A stretch of 64,000 bases of DNA from contig PMTM01000009.1 of the NCBI GenBank assembly GCA_003167365.1, forward strand, positions 1 through 64,000, in the 5' to 3' direction. The DNA comes from Spartobacteria bacterium. Lineage in GTDB: Bacteria > Verrucomicrobiota > Verrucomicrobiia > Chthoniobacterales > UBA10450. The position numbers and the translations under genes are program-made. Below are positions 2,510 through 50,336 of the stretch, piece after piece. The stretch's first letter is position 1; each line of letters starts with the position of its first letter. The notes below the pieces were generated by a model that ran no database searches, had not been told where the DNA came from, and saw only the letters and a list, made by a program, of their open reading frames with translations.

Positions 2510-4159
2510 TCACATTGTTTTCAAATACTCATGGACGAACTGTACCGACATCGAGCCTTCGCCCACGGCTGAGGCGACGCGCTTGACTGAGCCTGAGCGC
2601 ACATCGCCCGCAGCGAACACGCCCGGGCGGCTCGTCTCTAATAGGAACGGTTGCCGTTTCAATTTCCAGTGCGGCGAATCTGCCAAAGTGATTCCGGTGC
2701 GCACAAAACTCTTGTCGTCTCTTTCGATTTCCGCCGGCAACCAATCGGTTCGCGGCGTCGCGCCGATGAAACTGAACACCGCTACGGTTTCGATCGTCCG
2801 CTTCTTCCCGGCCACCTTGTCCAGGATTTCGATCGAACTCAGATGATCGTCGCCACTCATGGCCGCGACCTCGGTGCAGCGGAGGATCTCGATGTTCGGT
2901 GTGTTCATGATCCGATGGGCGAGATAACTCGACATGCTTTTGCAAAGATCGTCGCCGCGGATTAGCAGGAACACCTTGCGCGCGTTCTGCGAAAGATAAA
3001 CGGCCGCCTGCCCCGCGGAGTTGCCGCCGCCCACGAGGACGACATCCGTCCCGCGGCACATTTCGACTTCGTTAGCCGTGGCTGCATAATAAACACCGGC
3101 GCCTTCAAACCGGCTGCAGTGCTCCACATTGAGGCGACGGTACTCCGCTCCCGTCGCGATAAGCAGGCACTTGGCCGTAACACTTTCGCCGCCATCCAAT
3201 TCAAGAACGGAGTAGGCCTTGTCAAAGCTCAACTTGCTTATCGGCGTTGGAATGGAAATACGCGCACCAAACTTCTCGGCTTGGAGAACAGCTCGATCGG
3301 TCAGTTCGCCGCCGGTGATTCCGGTTGGAAATCCCAAATAATTCTCGATCCGCATGCTGCTCCCGGCCTGACCTCCCGGCGCCGTGCTGTCCAGTACGAT
3401 CGTATTCAATCCTTCGGAGGCGCCATAAACTGCCGCCGCTAATCCCGCCGGTCCCGAGCCGACGATGGCTAGATCATAAACCGTGTGCTCCACTGACCGG
3501 CGAATGCCAATCGTTTCGGCCAATTCAAGGTTCGACGGATTGCGCAACAGTACTCGGCTCGCGCAGGCGACGATAGGCGTTTCGGCTTCGCTCACTCCGA
3601 ATTGCTCGAGCACCTGGCTCACCGCTGGGTCGCCTTCCAAATCCAGCCAGGTGAACAGCACTCGGTTCTTCGCCAGAAAATCGCGCACGCGAAACGTATC
3701 GCGCGAATAGCGGGAACCGATCACGCGCAGTCCGATAAAATCCCCCGACTCTCGCATCACTTGCCGGCGGGCAATGAACGCTTGCAGAATCAGATCGCTC
3801 AGCCGCGGATCTTGATTGAGAAGCCCGCGCAAGGTTTCGACCGATATTTGATACACTTCACAATCCGTCTTCGCGATGCCGCTCACCACCTTCGGATTGC
3901 CCGTCAAATGCCCGACGTCGCCGGTGAATTGTCCGGCGCCCACCGTCATCATCGTCTTTGGCTGGTCGCCGCTCTCATCGACAATCTCCACTTCACCGGA
4001 CTTGATGACGAAAAACTCGACGTCGCGATCCCCCACGTGAAACAAGGCTTGGCCGGCTTGGAATTTCTTGGGCGTTCCGCTCGCATACTTCTCGATCCGC
4101 GCCATCTGCGCCTCATCGAAGGTCGGAAACGCGATCGCGTTTAAATCCTGCTCCGCCAT
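2510..4159 (-). CDS. cNMP-binding domain / thioredoxin reductase-like FAD oxidoreductase
   Basis: A 549-residue two-part protein. Residues about 20-130 form a cyclic-nucleotide-binding (CAP-type) barrel, followed by a short thioredoxin-like linker and then a thioredoxin-reductase fold: FAD-binding GSGPAGLAAAVYG near 230, NAD(P)H-binding LVGGGNSAGQAAV near 375, and the C-terminal FAAGDVRSG element. The CxxC redox pair of true thioredoxin reductase is missing (the region reads YYAATANEVEMC), so it cannot run the usual dithiol chemistry; a single Cys remains. It presumably couples ligand sensing to NAD(P)H oxidation. It is the first gene of a two-gene unit with the UBP zinc finger protein. Confidence 0.88.
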   Translation of the reverse strand: MAEQDLNAIAFPTFDEAQMARIEKYASGTPKKFQAGQALFHVGDRDVEFFVIKSGEVEIVDESGDQPKTMMTVGAGQFTGDVGHLTGNPKVVSGIAKTDCEVYQISVETLRGLLNQDPRLSDLILQAFIARRQVMRESGDFIGLRVIGSRYSRDTFRVRDFLAKNRVLFTWLDLEGDPAVSQVLEQFGVSEAETPIVACASRVLLRNPSNLELAETIGIRRSVEHTVYDLAIVGSGPAGLAAAVYGASEGLNTIVLDSTAPGGQAGSSMRIENYLGFPTGITGGELTDRAVLQAEKFGARISIPTPISKLSFDKAYSVLELDGGESVTAKCLLIATGAEYRRLNVEHCSRFEGAGVYYAATANEVEMCRGTDVVLVGGGNSAGQAAVYLSQNARKVFLLIRGDDLCKSMSSYLAHRIMNTPNIEILRCTEVAAMSGDDHLSSIEILDKVAGKKRTIETVAVFSFIGATPRTDWLPAEIERDDKSFVRTGITLADSPHWKLKRQPFLLETSRPGVFAAGDVRSGSVKRVASAVGEGSMSVQFVHEYLKTM

Positions 4160-4212
4160 GATTTGAATCTACGCGCTCTGATAAGGGGAACAACTCAGCC
4201 TAAAACTCTTTG

Positions 4213-26081: not shown

Positions 26082-26258
26082 CGAGCACGTCTAGACGAGC
26101 GTTGATTCCCACCTCGCCCCGGATGATAACGAAAGCGGCGCGAGATAATCTTAATTCTTAATTCGGCCATCTTACTTTCTTTAGTCGCCCGCCTACGCGT
26201 TTGAAAAAGCTGGTCGCGCGCGTCATCTTTGTTAAACCTCAGCTCATGGACAGGACCG

Positions 26259-27566
26259 ATGAGTAAACACGTTTTCGTAAGCCACTCCCACGAAGATGAA
26301 CCCGCCGCGCAGCTGCTGGTGAAGGCGCTGGAGGAGCGCGAAGTGGTCTGCTGGCTGGCTCCGAGAGACGTGCCCGCGGGCGGTTCTTATGCGGAGTCCA
26401 TCCTAAACGCGATCGAGAGCGCCAGTTGTTTCGTGCTGATTTACAGCCAAAACTCGAATGTCTCTTCCCACGTGATGCGCGAAGTGGAGCGCGCGCTAAA
26501 GTTTGGCGTCAATATCGTTCCAGTTCGGTTCGATGATTCCACGCCCTCCAAGAGCCTTGATTATCTTCTCGCGACCGTGCACTGGCTGGCAATCGCGCCC
26601 GATGCCCGGGACCGATCCATCATCAGGGCGGCGGAACAAATCCTCGCGGCGGTAGAGAAATCTCAGAGCGCCCGCCCGGCTGCGGAGCCGGATCGAGCTT
26701 CGCCATCGCAAACCGTCGTAACTCCGGTGACGCCTCCGCCCAAGCGACCCTTACTTTGGATAGGAGTTGTGGTCGCGCTGGCCTTGGTCGCCGGGGTGAT
26801 CGGGTTTCTCGTTTTAAAGAATCCATCTCGCAGCCAAAGCGCCGGCGCTGGAAGTATGACTGCCGCGCCTTCGGCCGACCAAGCGGCAGCTACGACAAAG
26901 GCCGATCAGACGGAGCCGACGCTGGCGTTGTTGCACCATTATTTTGATCTGTTGGATAAACGAGATGCGACCGCGGCCTTCAATCTCTTGTCCGCGAATT
27001 TCCGCAGCCATCTCGCCTTCACAGTATATTCCCGGAACGTCGCCCTCACCCCGCGGGCCAAGCTGGTGGACGCCACGATTGTTTCGAAGAGCGAACGCAG
27101 CGTCAGCGTCGCGGCAGTTTTCCAAGACGCCAATCCTGCATCCCAGCAGCCGCAATGGCGAGGTCCGATCGAATTGGTGCTCGCGCCAGATGGTTGGCAA
27201 ATTGACAGCATGAAAGGCCTCTTGCCCGCCAATGGTCGCCCTCTCCGCTCATCGGTTAACGGATCAGATAAAGAGGCGACGCAAGATGCCGGTCAATCAA
27301 CGCCTCAATCCACTCCCGCGTCCTCGGCTATTCCGGGGTCGAGCCCGGTGCATCCAGCAATGTATGGCATCGTGCAAGATCCTGAGGGGACGACGGCTGT
27401 CCGCGAAGAGCCATTCGTTAAAGCGAAAATTGTCGCGATGGTGAAGAATGGCGACCGGCTCGAGATCGACCAAATGCAACGTGATTGGGCGCACGTTATC
27501 ATCGGCCCGGGCAAGAGCGGATTCATTCACAAGAGCTGGTTGAAAATTACTTCGGAGACACCATAG
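26259..27566 (+). CDS. Membrane-anchored TIR-domain protein with SH3-like C-terminus
   Basis: A 435-residue protein with an unusual order: a TIR domain (about 1-135; VFVSHSHEDEPAA, WLAPRDVPAGGSY, and a glutamate at E75 or E77 in MREVERAL that fits the NADase position), one transmembrane helix (about 160-183), an NTF2/DUF4019-like region (about 215-310) and a bacterial SH3 domain at the end (GTTAVREEPFVKAKIV to SGFIHKSWL). The start is the ATG before SKHVFVSH; a TTG 30 bases upstream is less likely. In other systems TIR domains cut NAD or build signalling nucleotides. No partner defence gene is adjacent, so signalling is equally possible. Confidence 0.8.
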   Translation: MSKHVFVSHSHEDEPAAQLLVKALEEREVVCWLAPRDVPAGGSYAESILNAIESASCFVLIYSQNSNVSSHVMREVERALKFGVNIVPVRFDDSTPSKSLDYLLATVHWLAIAPDARDRSIIRAAEQILAAVEKSQSARPAAEPDRASPSQTVVTPVTPPPKRPLLWIGVVVALALVAGVIGFLVLKNPSRSQSAGAGSMTAAPSADQAAATTKADQTEPTLALLHHYFDLLDKRDATAAFNLLSANFRSHLAFTVYSRNVALTPRAKLVDATIVSKSERSVSVAAVFQDANPASQQPQWRGPIELVLAPDGWQIDSMKGLLPANGRPLRSSVNGSDKEATQDAGQSTPQSTPASSAIPGSSPVHPAMYGIVQDPEGTTAVREEPFVKAKIVAMVKNGDRLEIDQMQRDWAHVIIGPGKSGFIHKSWLKITSETP

Positions 27567-45459: not shown

Positions 45460-46317
45460 TTACTTACTTCCCTTGCGATGATTCAAACCGCGCAGCGCGT
45501 CGCGCGCGCGCACGGCGACAGATTCTGGTCCGTGACAGATAATCTGACGTTCGCCGGAACTTAATTCGGTTTGGTAGAACGCGACACCCGCCAGGGTGGG
45601 CGGATCGTAACTCAGCGTTGAAGCACCTTTGTCGGGATCCATAGTGAGCGGCAAGACCCAAACTCCACCGCCAGATACTCCACGGTAGTCGGCGGGATAA
45701 CTATGTTCACCCGCGATCAATTGCAACGTGACGAAATCGAAGCCTTCGCGACTAACGCGACTTTTGAAGGTTGCCTCAGCGTGAAAGTGCACGGCCGTTA
45801 AAATGTGGCCTGGAGTTCCAAATTCTCCCTGATTACTCGAGCGTTCGGCGGGAGCACCCACAAGATACCAGGGCATGTGCGCGATTGGTAATTCCAACCA
45901 GAATCGATCCCGCCTAGGGTTATCCAGACGATAGAATGACTTTTTGCTTTTGATCGTGGCGATTGAGTCTGGACTAAGCAAGCGGATCAAGGAGAGATCA
46001 GGACCAAGTTCTTCACTTGCTCCTGCAGCACAGCTGCCGATGACGACATGTTGCAACTGCTCCACGGCAACAAAGAAACCGTGAGGATATGCGGCTATAT
46101 TTATGCCGAGGTGTGTAACATCAGGCTCGTCCAACAATTCGGCGACATGATGCGCTGACAGAATCGCATGAATATCGTCGACGCACACCAGCGTTCCCGA
46201 GCCGATCAGACGCTGATTTAAGATCAAACTCACCATGAAGTGCGACATTTCCAATGTCGCAGCGTTCTTAAGCGTAGCGGGAATCTCAATCTCGGGATGA
46301 AAACCAAACTCGTGCAC
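45460..46317 (-). CDS. Trypsin-like serine protease domain protein
   Basis: A 285-residue protein with a trypsin-fold triad: GSGTLVCVDDIHAILSAHHV (His57), GPDLSLIRL (Asp107) and YRGVSGGGVW (Ser215 in the GxSGG box). It has no signal peptide or membrane helix, so it probably works in the cytoplasm, unlike most secreted relatives. Cytoplasmic proteases of this kind are known in some phage-defence systems. The gene lies 18 bases downstream of the frameshifted zinc-ribbon gene on the same strand, so a functional link is plausible. Confidence 0.7.
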   Translation of the reverse strand: MHEFGFHPEIEIPATLKNAATLEMSHFMVSLILNQRLIGSGTLVCVDDIHAILSAHHVAELLDEPDVTHLGINIAAYPHGFFVAVEQLQHVVIGSCAAGASEELGPDLSLIRLLSPDSIATIKSKKSFYRLDNPRRDRFWLELPIAHMPWYLVGAPAERSSNQGEFGTPGHILTAVHFHAEATFKSRVSREGFDFVTLQLIAGEHSYPADYRGVSGGGVWVLPLTMDPDKGASTLSYDPPTLAGVAFYQTELSSGERQIICHGPESVAVRARDALRGLNHRKGSK

Positions 46318-46335: not shown

Positions 46336-47336
46336 TTAAGAGCCTCCTCTTCCAATTGTTTTTTCTATTCGTTCAAGTAGACCATCGCGACAATTTTCTA
46401 AATTGTCGTCGGTCCAGGTGAGAAAATTGTACTGCCGGGTATCGAAGTGGACATCAGCAAGTTGATCTTTTCTACACAGCCAGATAACGGGCAATCCAAT
46501 CGCGACAGCGAAACCGGCTTCAAAATACACGCTCCCGCGCTGACCGGTAAAATCCGCTACAACAAACCGACTGACACGGATCATTTTTATGATTTCATCA
46601 TCAATCCGGTTGTTGTGTGGATGTTGATCTATTCTTTTGCAACAAATCCAGCACTGGCAACCGCGGGCTCAATCGCAGAAGCGAAGAGTGACCTCGTTGA
46701 ATCGTCAAACCACATTGCGACAAATCCTATGTTGGAGAGTCGACTTCTCTCTTGCGGCTGCTCTATGAATTCCCAACCGGCGGGCGTAAGTTGATATTCT
46801 GGTTGATTGATCTTCCCTTCTGGATCAGCAAGCAGTCCTTTCTCCTTCTTCAGATGTTCATCGAGCAAGAACATCAATTCTCGAAAATTCTCAGCCCCAC
46901 TTACGCCAATCAACTCCGCATTGCGGGCGTAGTTAGGGTTTACTTGATGCAAATTGAGATCGTAATAGACCGCGTGCTCATCTTTGCCGACTCTGAATGC
47001 CTGGTCGAGATCGACGAGGTTTAATAAAACTCCCCTTCCGGGTTGGCTCTTATGGGCAAGATATCGAAGAATCCTGATTGCTTTTGCCGATAGCGGTAGC
47101 GGTTGAGAATGGCGAAACTCGGCAACTTCATCCCTAGTAATTAAGCACCCTGGGTTCTCTCTAATCCGCGACGCCGCAGCCGCAGCTTGCGCAGGTGGGA
47201 AGGGATCATTTCGGAGAATTCCATCAGCTTCCGCTGTTATCTTGAACGCTCCGCACCGAAGGCAATTTACATTTTTTGGTTCCGGACCGGATACGACGTG
47301 CGTACTCGGTGCCTTGCAGATTGGGCATTCGGTCAT
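46336..47336 (-). pseudogene. Zinc-ribbon protein with NDT/TIR-like domain, frameshifted
   Basis: Two frames form one protein. The first (46629-47336) begins with a zinc ribbon (C4, C7, C25, C28), a helical middle, and the start of an alpha/beta domain, SNIGFVAMWFDDS. The second (46336-46584 and upstream) continues it: RIDDEIIKMIRVSRFVVADFTGQ, VYFEAGFAVAIGLPVIWLC and HFDTRQYN. This domain is that of nucleoside-2-deoxyribosyltransferase-like proteins with Glu in FEAG as the catalytic candidate. The joint lies in GCAAAAGAATAG at 46629-46640: a -1 shift on AAAA restores the frame. It is 18 bases upstream of the protease gene. Confidence 0.72.
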
Positions 47337-47375: not shown

Positions 47376-48383
47376 CTATGGCGCGTGCACCTCTTGCTCA
47401 GCCGATTTCTCGGGATGCTGATCGTAGTCGCGCTCGATTGCTTTTCGAATCACTTCCCAATCGAAGTCATACTTAAACCGGTTGATCAAATCGGTCGCCC
47501 ATGCCTCCTGCTTGATAGTAGTGTTCGACCATCGAAGAAGCCGCTTTGTCCTGTAGTGGATGCTTAACTCCATCACTTGGCTTCGCACAGCGGGTTTCTT
47601 CAGCGTTTCACGAATGTGTTTCACGACTACTGTCTCGGGGCCTTCATTCTCGCCGAAAAGACTCGTGAATCGGATCGAGAATTCGATACGCGGATTTCCG
47701 ACGATGATGGTTCTAGTTGTTGGATTTCGTTCAAACCAGATCTTCGATGACGAAGGCAACACCAGCGCGCTCACTGTTTCATCTAAGTCAATTGTCTGTC
47801 GCTCGCGGGCATACGCTTGGTAGCATTTGTTTTGCGGTATGAGCGACGCGATCTTCGAAACGTTCAATCGCACGGGATTCTTTTCTGTATCGCGTCTATA
47901 TCGAATTTGGCCCATCCCTCCACCGTACAGTCCTACAAATCTTGCCCGGTCGACGTCCCAATGATCGCCGATATTATAGTGCATCCAAATCAACGTCCCC
48001 GCTTCAGCCAAGTCTAAGAAGAAAGCGGAGTCTGTTAAAGAATACTCAGCCACAGATTTGGAAGAGACTGCTTTCTGCCAAGAGTTTGCCGCTTCTACGA
48101 CCGATCGATCAACTGACGGGAACGTGAGTCTGGCAAGATCGACAATCCGACGATCCTCCAAGTATGGAATCACATACGTCAGATTTTCGTCTCGGGCGAG
48201 CGGCTGTGTGCCGAAAAATTCATAAAAGAGAAGCACACAGGCCAGAACCAAAGGCGCGACGACTGTTTTGGCGAACAGCCAAATGATGGAGTCATTGCCA
48301 CGGTTGACCCAAATCCAAAACCACAGACCCCCGACGATGATAATGCTCAGGACTAAGCCGCAAATGAGTACCGTGTTTTTCAA
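47376..48383 (-). CDS. Membrane protein of unknown function
   Basis: A 335-residue protein with two N-terminal membrane helices (VLICGLVLSIIIVGGLWFWIW and WLFAKTVVAPLVLACVLLFY) and a large soluble part that includes GPETVVVKHIRETLKKPA. The soluble part is mixed alpha/beta with no domain I recognise. It stands 39 bases upstream of the zinc-ribbon/NDT-like gene, which makes co-transcription likely, and 185 bases downstream of the SLOG gene. Confidence 0.6.
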   Translation of the reverse strand: MKNTVLICGLVLSIIIVGGLWFWIWVNRGNDSIIWLFAKTVVAPLVLACVLLFYEFFGTQPLARDENLTYVIPYLEDRRIVDLARLTFPSVDRSVVEAANSWQKAVSSKSVAEYSLTDSAFFLDLAEAGTLIWMHYNIGDHWDVDRARFVGLYGGGMGQIRYRRDTEKNPVRLNVSKIASLIPQNKCYQAYARERQTIDLDETVSALVLPSSSKIWFERNPTTRTIIVGNPRIEFSIRFTSLFGENEGPETVVVKHIRETLKKPAVRSQVMELSIHYRTKRLLRWSNTTIKQEAWATDLINRFKYDFDWEVIRKAIERDYDQHPEKSAEQEVHAP

Positions 48384-48568: not shown

Positions 48569-49162
48569 TCACGCAGTCTTCAAGGCAACATATTTCCCAG
48601 GAACAGCGGAGCCACTTCCCTTATTTATCATATTAGAGGCAAGATGATCCAAAAGGTCTGGAACGCTTTCTCCGATTTTTAATAATTTTTCCCAAACCGG
48701 AAAAAGTGGCAATAGCAATTCAAGAGCCTGAACAGCGGGTCCTGAGCCGCGAAGCGCAGCAACGGGAATACCGTAATCTGCAAGCGCAATTACACCTTCT
48801 TCCAAAGTACCGTCGCCGCCGGTTACAATGAAAAGCGCGTCGGAAGCGCGAATCTGATAAATGTTTCTCATCGGATAATCCAGGTCAGTCTCAACAATGC
48901 GATCGGCACCGAAACCCACTTCTTCTCCGACCTTCTCCATCTCACGTCGATCTGGCAGAAAGAAAATCACTTCACCCCGCGAGTCGACCGAACGGTATCC
49001 CTGAATTACAAACTCGGAGATCCCTGTTCCTGGACCACACGCAAGGTCATATCCCCGCTCTGCTAGCTGCTGCCCAAGCGAGGTTGCGACATTCGCGAAA
49101 TCGCTAGCCTTTTTTTTTCTCCATGTCCCCGCCACGAATACTCGCATCTTCTTCGTATTCAT
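48569..49162 (-). CDS. SLOG-superfamily (LOG-like) nucleotide-binding protein
   Basis: A 197-residue protein of the SLOG superfamily, which includes LOG, DprA and the sensor domains of some conflict systems. The Rossmann-like fold is shown by MRVFVAGTWRKKKASDF, the GPGTGISE loop (43-50) and the phosphate-binding TGGDGTLEEG (114-123). In other systems SLOG domains bind nucleotide-derived signals; LOG enzymes release cytokinin riboside. Its ATG overlaps the stop of the upstream two-TM gene by one base (TAATG), which implies fixed stoichiometry. I infer a ligand-sensing role. Confidence 0.78.
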   Translation of the reverse strand: MNTKKMRVFVAGTWRKKKASDFANVATSLGQQLAERGYDLACGPGTGISEFVIQGYRSVDSRGEVIFFLPDRREMEKVGEEVGFGADRIVETDLDYPMRNIYQIRASDALFIVTGGDGTLEEGVIALADYGIPVAALRGSGPAVQALELLLPLFPVWEKLLKIGESVPDLLDHLASNMINKGSGSAVPGKYVALKTA

Positions 49163-49956
49163 TACTGGCCGAACAGCTTTAATCGCTGTTTACATACAAG
49201 CTTCATGACGTCTTTGATATTCTCAGATCTGTATATCTTCACGTCGATAAACGCTTGCACAGCTTGTTTAAGAAGAAATGGAAGATCATCCTCGGTTCGA
49301 ACAAAATACAGCGACGGCTTGCGAAGCGCCACTGCACAGCCCGCTTCAACAAGAGCACTCGTAACTACTTTCGAATGATAAATCATAACAAAATAGCGAC
49401 TCTCTTCAATCGCTTTAAGATCGTCTTTCACTGAAATACCCTCCGGGTCGAAGTCACTCACGGAGCCAATATCGCGGCCAGCATAGAATATTTTGTCAAA
49501 ACCACATTCCCTCCGAAAAGTATCTATTAATTCAAGGATCAATTTTCGATTAGCCTCATATTCCTTCGTGGAGGGCAGTGCCGCCATTGGCGAGGACAAA
49601 AAAATATCGTGCTTGAATGACAGCCCTTTTGGAACCACTTCTTCGAGTTTGGGCTGTTTGGACTCGGCGACAACTGGAAACGTTGCGGATAGATTCCGCC
49701 CAAACAAATATTCGGGTCGAGAATACGCCAAAAACGCGACAACAAGGATGGTCAGGAAAATCAGGATCAAGCATCCCCAAAAAAGACTGGTTCGATTCTG
49801 TTCGGGGACTATCGACGAAACTGCAAGTAAACCTCCTTCTAGGATCAACAATCCGAGTGTGAAGAATCCCAGCGGTGTCTGGACAGCGTTGATAATCGAG
49901 ACGCGACCGGCTTGAGAACCTCCGCTGGCGCTGCCTTTTTTTTCGGGGGAAACCAT
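49162..49956 (-). CDS. Two-TM protein with TIR/NDT-like cytoplasmic domain
   Basis: A 264-residue protein. Two membrane helices (about 28-50 and 58-78) precede an alpha/beta domain: HDIFLSSPMAAL (116-127), IFYAGRDIGSVSDFDPE, and SALVEAGCAV (200-209) with a Glu (E204) in the position of the catalytic Glu of nucleoside deoxyribosyltransferase and TIR enzymes. The start is the ATG of MVSPEKKG; the longer open frame up to 50139 overlaps the GIY-YIG gene and is rejected. A run of nine Ts on the plus strand near 49937-49943 encodes the Lys pair. It is the first gene of the SLOG unit. Confidence 0.7.
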   Translation of the reverse strand: MVSPEKKGSASGGSQAGRVSIINAVQTPLGFFTLGLLILEGGLLAVSSIVPEQNRTSLFWGCLILIFLTILVVAFLAYSRPEYLFGRNLSATFPVVAESKQPKLEEVVPKGLSFKHDIFLSSPMAALPSTKEYEANRKLILELIDTFRRECGFDKIFYAGRDIGSVSDFDPEGISVKDDLKAIEESRYFVMIYHSKVVTSALVEAGCAVALRKPSLYFVRTEDDLPFLLKQAVQAFIDVKIYRSENIKDVMKLVCKQRLKLFGQ

Positions 49957-50033: not shown

Positions 50034-50336
50034 GTGTTCTATGTGTACGTGCTGCGGTCAGAGAGCGACGCCGGTTTCTACATTGGCTTCTCGACGGACT
50101 TGAAGAGGCGGTTGTCGGAGCACAAGCGGGGCGCTTCATTCGTCACGAAATCACGCGGTCCATGGAAGCTTATTTATTATGAAGCTTACACGGAGCGCGA
50201 AGACGCAGAGGGCCGAGAGAAATTTCTGAAGAGCGGCGCCGGACGGCGTTTCCTGCGCGCTCAACTGCGTCACTATCTCCGCGTAAAAGGCTCCGCCTCA
50301 CGCGGCTTAAATCAGGATGACCCGACGACTCAATAA
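50034..50336 (+). CDS. GIY-YIG endonuclease domain protein
   Basis: A 100-residue GIY-YIG nuclease of the YhbQ/UPF0213 type. The domain shows FYVYVLRSESDAGFYIGFSTDLKRRLSEH with the YVY and YIG motifs and the catalytic Arg. The start is GTG. The gene diverges from the two-TM/SLOG unit. Its last codons include an imperfect 40-base duplication (50299-50338 vs 50344-50383), so the C-terminus may be altered. Confidence 0.82.
   Translation: MFYVYVLRSESDAGFYIGFSTDLKRRLSEHKRGASFVTKSRGPWKLIYYEAYTEREDAEGREKFLKSGAGRRFLRAQLRHYLRVKGSASRGLNQDDPTTQ

Follow-up and report, generated by a model that had tools for sequence, protein, structure and literature searches.

Two genes that overlap by one base encode a membrane protein, whose C-terminal domain has the predicted fold of nucleotide N-glycosidases, and a stand-alone SLOG protein. 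We propose, with a probability of roughly 0.4, that they form a single horizontally acquired, nucleotide-centred conflict unit, consisting of a membrane-tethered nucleotide or NAD N-glycosidase and its SLOG partner. The genes and their main features in the window (the whole stretch of 64,000 nucleotides that was analysed) are:

49162..49956, minus strand: gene for the 264-aa membrane protein, an open ORF
49165..49644, minus strand: part of that gene for the modelled NDT/DrHyd-like domain, residues 105-264 (AlphaFold2); the domain itself is placed at residues ~115-262 by its phrog_23497 match, fold and Glu204
49160..49164, minus strand: TAATG junction, with the stop TAA at 49164-49162 and the start ATG at 49162-49160
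48569..49162, minus strand: gene for the 197-aa SLOG protein, an open ORF with its own start

Base 49162 is common to the TAA stop of the first gene and the ATG start of the second, and the sequence across the junction (...GGCCAGTAATGAATACG...) bears out the TAATG overlap described in the original prediction. This overlap suggests translational coupling of the two genes only, and the prediction's further statement that the products are made at a fixed ratio reads too much into it. The longest mechanical ORF of the membrane protein gene extends to 50139, but this extension runs into an opposite-strand gene for a GIY-YIG endonuclease domain at 50034-50336, and we therefore prefer the start at 49956, which gives 264 aa. 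Judged from the sequence matches described below (LDcluster4, E = 6e-15; phrog_23497, E = 1e-21; and a relative from another phylum with conserved residues), the observation of the pair is beyond chance.

Predicted folds of the two proteins

Hydropathy confirms the two predicted membrane helices, as two hydrophobic stretches within approximately residues 28-82 of the 264-aa protein. Basic residues flank the outer sides of both stretches which, by the positive-inside rule, puts the C-terminal domain most likely on the cytosolic side. In a Pfam profile search, no SLATT model matched the two-helix region even at E up to 1. Another genome of the host phylum encodes a homologue of this module as a stand-alone protein of 91 aa; its gene (locus L003, 1471-1746, plus strand) is inside a glycosyltransferase cluster rather than a defence locus. 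We judged matches of the second helix to PsbL/photosystem proteins to be chance hits of a short hydrophobic stretch, and left two Pseudomonadota matches to the two-helix region (L056 and L057) uncounted because stops interrupt them.

Over residues 115-262 the protein matches a functionally uncharacterised family, phrog_23497, with E = 1e-21. Pfam gave no match to Nuc_deoxyrib_tr on the membrane protein, and TIR_2 (PF13676) is sub-threshold (16 bits, cut-off 28); the placement of the domain in the NDT/DrHyd superfamily rests on its fold and not on the Nuc_deoxyrib_tr profile. The fold was modelled with AlphaFold2 from a two-row alignment of the window protein and its relative L049 (mean pLDDT 74.4, pTM 0.77). 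MilB is the closest fold to this two-sequence model (Z 14.1, 144 residues, 3.2 A), and DNPH1 has Z 13.2. Because TIR domains lie below both (Z 10.7-11.4), the nearest family is that of the NDT/DrHyd N-glycosidases. Foldseek gives E 2.9e-5 for an NDT-type Rossmannoid fold (two-sequence model, pLDDT 74), and sequence identity to the MilB/BcmB/DNPH1 group is only 13-21%. The alpha/beta fold claimed for the second protein is therefore supported by the model; of its description as 'TIR/NDT-like', the NDT part holds, with Glu204 at the catalytic position, whereas TIR is only a cousin.

The two-row profile also matches the CMP N-glycosidase BcmB (4jen), with Glu aligned on Glu and Asp on Asp, at an E-value (0.012) that is weak when taken alone. 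The aligned Glu is Glu204, within the motif SALVEAGCAV; it is conserved in L049, and Asp179 is kept alongside it. In the predicted structure, Glu204 is at the position of the catalytic Glu of N-glycosidases. Phe119 falls at the place of Tyr24 of DNPH1, a correspondence taken from the range ends of the alignment (model 12 = DNPH1 21) and not a residue-level superposition. At the position where deoxynucleotide enzymes carry Tyr, TIR domains that cleave NAD usually contain Phe or Ala (PMC11204291), and in the model this favours a ribonucleotide or NAD as the substrate.

The SLOG fold of the 197-aa protein is well founded: residues 6-138 match Pfam LDcluster4 (PF18306) at 55.5 bits, above the cut-off of 26.3 (E = 6e-15). 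The STALD profile is barely at its cut-off (24.3 bits, cut-off 24) and TIGR00725 is under its own (45.5 bits, cut-off 106.9). Both of the loops that had been pointed out, GPGTGIS and TGGDGTLEE, are found in the product, the latter being its form of the GGxGTxxE motif. Among solved structures, 1rcu and LOG enzymes are the best relatives. Arg99 and Glu122 are kept in the alignment to LOG 5zbj, where the Glu is that of GGxGTxxE; we take this Arg and Glu to be the catalytic residues of LOG enzymes. Chain 5zbk has Ala in place of this Glu when compared to 5zbj, and is evidently an active-site mutant. In an alignment with two TIGR00725-like proteins from the same phylum, R99, N100, G115, G118, T119 and E122 are kept. 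A single-sequence fold of the SLOG protein was discarded (pLDDT 40). Because the LOG Arg and Glu are kept, roles as an enzyme and as a sensor are both possible, so the original identification as SLOG stands but its casting as a sensor does not exclude an enzyme. SLOG proteins have been described in both capacities (PMC9503650).

Relatives and genomic surroundings

The domain family is very rare. A slightly relaxed DNA pattern had 11 matches in 84,980 species genomes, only one of which is a true relative: L049, from a Gemmataceae MAG of another phylum; its domain is 38% identical and retains the same conserved residues. The L049 domain matches phrog_23497 with identical borders, and scores 20.3 bits on Nuc_deoxyrib_tr (cut-off 28.8). 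Its gene (2808-4196, minus strand) encodes the phrog_23497/NDT-like domain and a Ser/Thr protein kinase in one protein, a possible kinase-coupled nucleotide effector. DRHyd and kinase domains are both among the effectors of conflict systems (PMC8195603).

Among 289 genomes of the host phylum, the domain was found in its own genome, apart from one weak partial match (L030) that we did not count; L033, also weak, was left out too. Its only occurrence among 246 genomes of L049's phylum is in L049's own genome, and there is none in 274 genomes of a Shewanella's class. In a set of 73 relatives including its own genome the domain is absent from the other 72, and at E 1e-5 the SLOG protein is absent from 77 of 78, its own being the exception. 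Among SLOG matches in the host phylum, those with E-values between 1e-4 and 1e-6 resemble ordinary LOG-type genes and were rejected; the 11 loci inspected have no evident membrane-NDT neighbour. No SLOG gene is present in the 20 kb neighbourhood of L049, or in the neighbourhood of the stand-alone two-helix gene.

Other searches gave no relatives: back-translated peptide scans of genome contigs and viral contigs with the single sequence, A1-, A2- and A4-based scans of viral sequences, a VEAG pattern scan, tblastn searches of plasmids and phages with the membrane protein or the L049 domain as query, and of plasmids with the two-helix region. Matches of a three-motif DNA pattern in viral contigs proved on translation to be phage structural proteins or to have no ORF, and the one match of a second DNA pattern in viral contigs was judged to be chance. 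A second SLOG and membrane-NDT pair was found neither in the domain search of nearly 900 sampled genomes nor anywhere in the sampled genomes, plasmids, phages and viral contigs, collections in which the family is very rare. Because, L049 apart, the domain and SLOG searches returned only the pair's own genome, and L049 and L003 lack a SLOG neighbour, the pair is a single instance so far; the idea of a recurring unit has no support in these collections.

Around the pair, between about 45.5 and 50 kb, the GC content is ~0.47-0.51, compared to 0.556 for the window. The pair itself has a GC content of ~0.475, and a GC3 of 0.45-0.48 in its two genes versus ~0.59-0.76 in those genes tested that flank it or lie farther away. 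It looks like a rare, horizontally acquired element. Its neighbours are:

50034-50336, plus strand: gene with a GIY-YIG endonuclease domain, immediately upstream of the pair and on the margin of the low-GC stretch
47376..48383, minus strand: protein of 335 aa that has hydrophobic helices at its N-terminus and matches no family significantly, 185 bases downstream of the SLOG gene
46336..47336, minus strand: zinc-ribbon protein with a second NDT-like domain at its C-terminus (phrog_16139, 2e-25)
45460-46317, minus strand: 285-aa protein with no Pfam match, downstream of the pair

Whether the 335-aa protein is part of the pair's unit is uncertain. The zinc-ribbon gene is a possible further member of the island; its product matches Nuc_deoxyrib_tr at E 1e-4, below the cut-off, and a shift near 46630 interrupts its reading frame, pointing to either a pseudogene or an assembly error. 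The segment GSGTLVCVDDIHAILSAHHV of the 285-aa protein resembles the start of a trypsin-type protease, judged by eye only. No recognised defence system lies beside the pair, and the membrane protein matches no PADLOC model.

Comparison with known systems and possible function

The domain resembles MilB/BcmB and DNPH1 along its whole length, in predicted fold, catalytic Glu position and conserved Asp, although DNPH1 has Tyr24 where it has Phe. These enzymes are not known to have a membrane hairpin or a SLOG partner. The SLOG protein shares its fold, the GGxGTxxE motif and the active-site Arg and Glu with LOG-like/LDcluster4 proteins (TIGR00725, the cytokinin phosphoribohydrolase LOG), but differs from them in its GPGTG loop, an insertion near residues 74-90, a score below the TIGR00725 cut-off, and its pairing with a gene for an N-glycosidase-like membrane protein. 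Thoeris (ThsA, SIR2-SLOG or TM-macro; ThsB, TIR) likewise combines SLOG with a TIR-related N-glycosidase, and one form has a membrane effector. The pair, however, has no SIR2, macro or true TIR domain, and only the SLOG part of ThsA matches; here SLOG stands alone, and it is the enzyme-like protein that carries the membrane part. In SLATT-coupled TIR units a two-TM protein also adjoins a gene of the TIR/SLOG clade, whereas ours has no SLATT match and carries its own NDT-like domain. On these features the pair falls outside Thoeris, SLATT and TIR systems. Swarozyc, a DUF4062 TIR-like NADase (PMC13174449), shares a TIR/NDT-like domain with conserved Glu; the words 'membrane' and 'transmembrane' are absent from the paper, no SLOG partner is apparent in its description, and our Pfam search gave no DUF4062 match.

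TIR, DrHyd and SLOG belong to a single clade, whose members act in conflict systems as N-glycosidic enzymes and as sensors of nucleotides (PMC9503650), and are widely used in those of prokaryotes (PMC9503650, PMC7159879, PMC8195603). A membrane-anchored DrHyd with a SLOG partner fits this theme. No described system of this composition was found in the literature searched; the likeliest place for one, a 2015 survey (10.1093/nar/gkv1267), lies outside that scope.

The sequence or the models show how the genes are arranged, the folds, the conserved Glu, the membrane hairpin, the rarity and the low GC; catalysis, substrate, interaction of the two proteins and a defence role are what we infer, as follows. 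Both genes would form one transcriptional unit. Using Glu204, the cytosolic DrHyd/NDT domain probably cleaves a ribonucleotide or NAD+ at its N-glycosidic bond, and the soluble SLOG protein would bind, and perhaps hydrolyse, a nucleotide or the membrane protein's product. On infection the membrane protein might cluster or lose an inhibition, and deplete or convert a nucleotide, while the SLOG protein, which would sense that nucleotide or remove it, would thereby set the threshold. The pair is possibly an anti-phage unit. The same-strand overlap, the SLOG match with the LOG Arg and Glu, the domain fold, the BcmB match, Phe119, the use of the TIR/DrHyd/SLOG clade in conflict systems, the low GC, the absence from relatives, the second NDT-like gene and the kinase fusion in L049 all speak for this proposal; the occurrence of the pair in one genome, the lack of SLOG near L049, the lack of a PADLOC match or of an adjacent recognised defence system, and the reliance on a two-sequence model count against it. 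More specifically, the two genes could be a so far unnamed immune system, with a membrane-tethered glycosidase of MilB/DNPH1 type that makes or destroys a nucleotide signal and a stand-alone LOG-like SLOG protein that reads or erases it, but this version is doubtful.

We considered three other explanations, each of them rather improbable. The pair could serve housekeeping or salvage and have no role in conflict: a LOG-like phosphoribohydrolase would work with a membrane-bound nucleotide N-hydrolase to clear damaged or modified nucleotides. The LOG catalytic residues and the proximity of the SLOG protein to TIGR00725/LOG structures agree with this, as do the nearest folds of its partner, MilB and DNPH1, which are enzymes of nucleotide hygiene or biosynthesis. 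However, a gene of low GC found in one genome among 73-78 relatives is unlike a housekeeping gene, salvage needs no membrane anchoring, and the pair is accompanied by another NDT-like gene as well as a membrane protein without a family. An equally small chance goes to a SLATT-type effector, where the hairpin would form a pore, the NDT-like domain would be an inactive nucleotide sensor and SLOG the regulator. Pore formation is the predicted effector function of two-TM SLATT proteins linked to nucleotide-signal genes (PMC9503650, PMC7159879), and the existence of the module as a separate 91-aa protein suits this idea; the failure of SLATT models, the retention of Glu204 and Asp179, and the glycosyltransferase surroundings of the stand-alone gene do not.

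Slightly less probable still is that these are unrelated accessory genes, brought together by chance at a site where mobile cargo accumulates, with an incidental overlap. The failure to find the pair a second time and the kinase-fused relative without SLOG favour this explanation; against it, the genes are on the same strand with a base common to stop and start, their GC3 is similar, and both products belong to the TIR-DrHyd-SLOG functional clade. If instead the proposed conflict unit is real, the TIR/DrHyd/SLOG immune repertoire would gain a membrane-anchored nucleotide N-glycosidase, with SLOG as a separate partner rather than fused to an effector. The predicted MilB/DNPH1-like fold with its conserved Glu would also give phrog_23497, an unnamed family, its first anchor.

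Elsewhere in the window, approximately 22 kb from the pair, a gene at 26229-27566 (plus strand) codes for a TIR_2 protein with a C-terminal bacterial SH3 domain.
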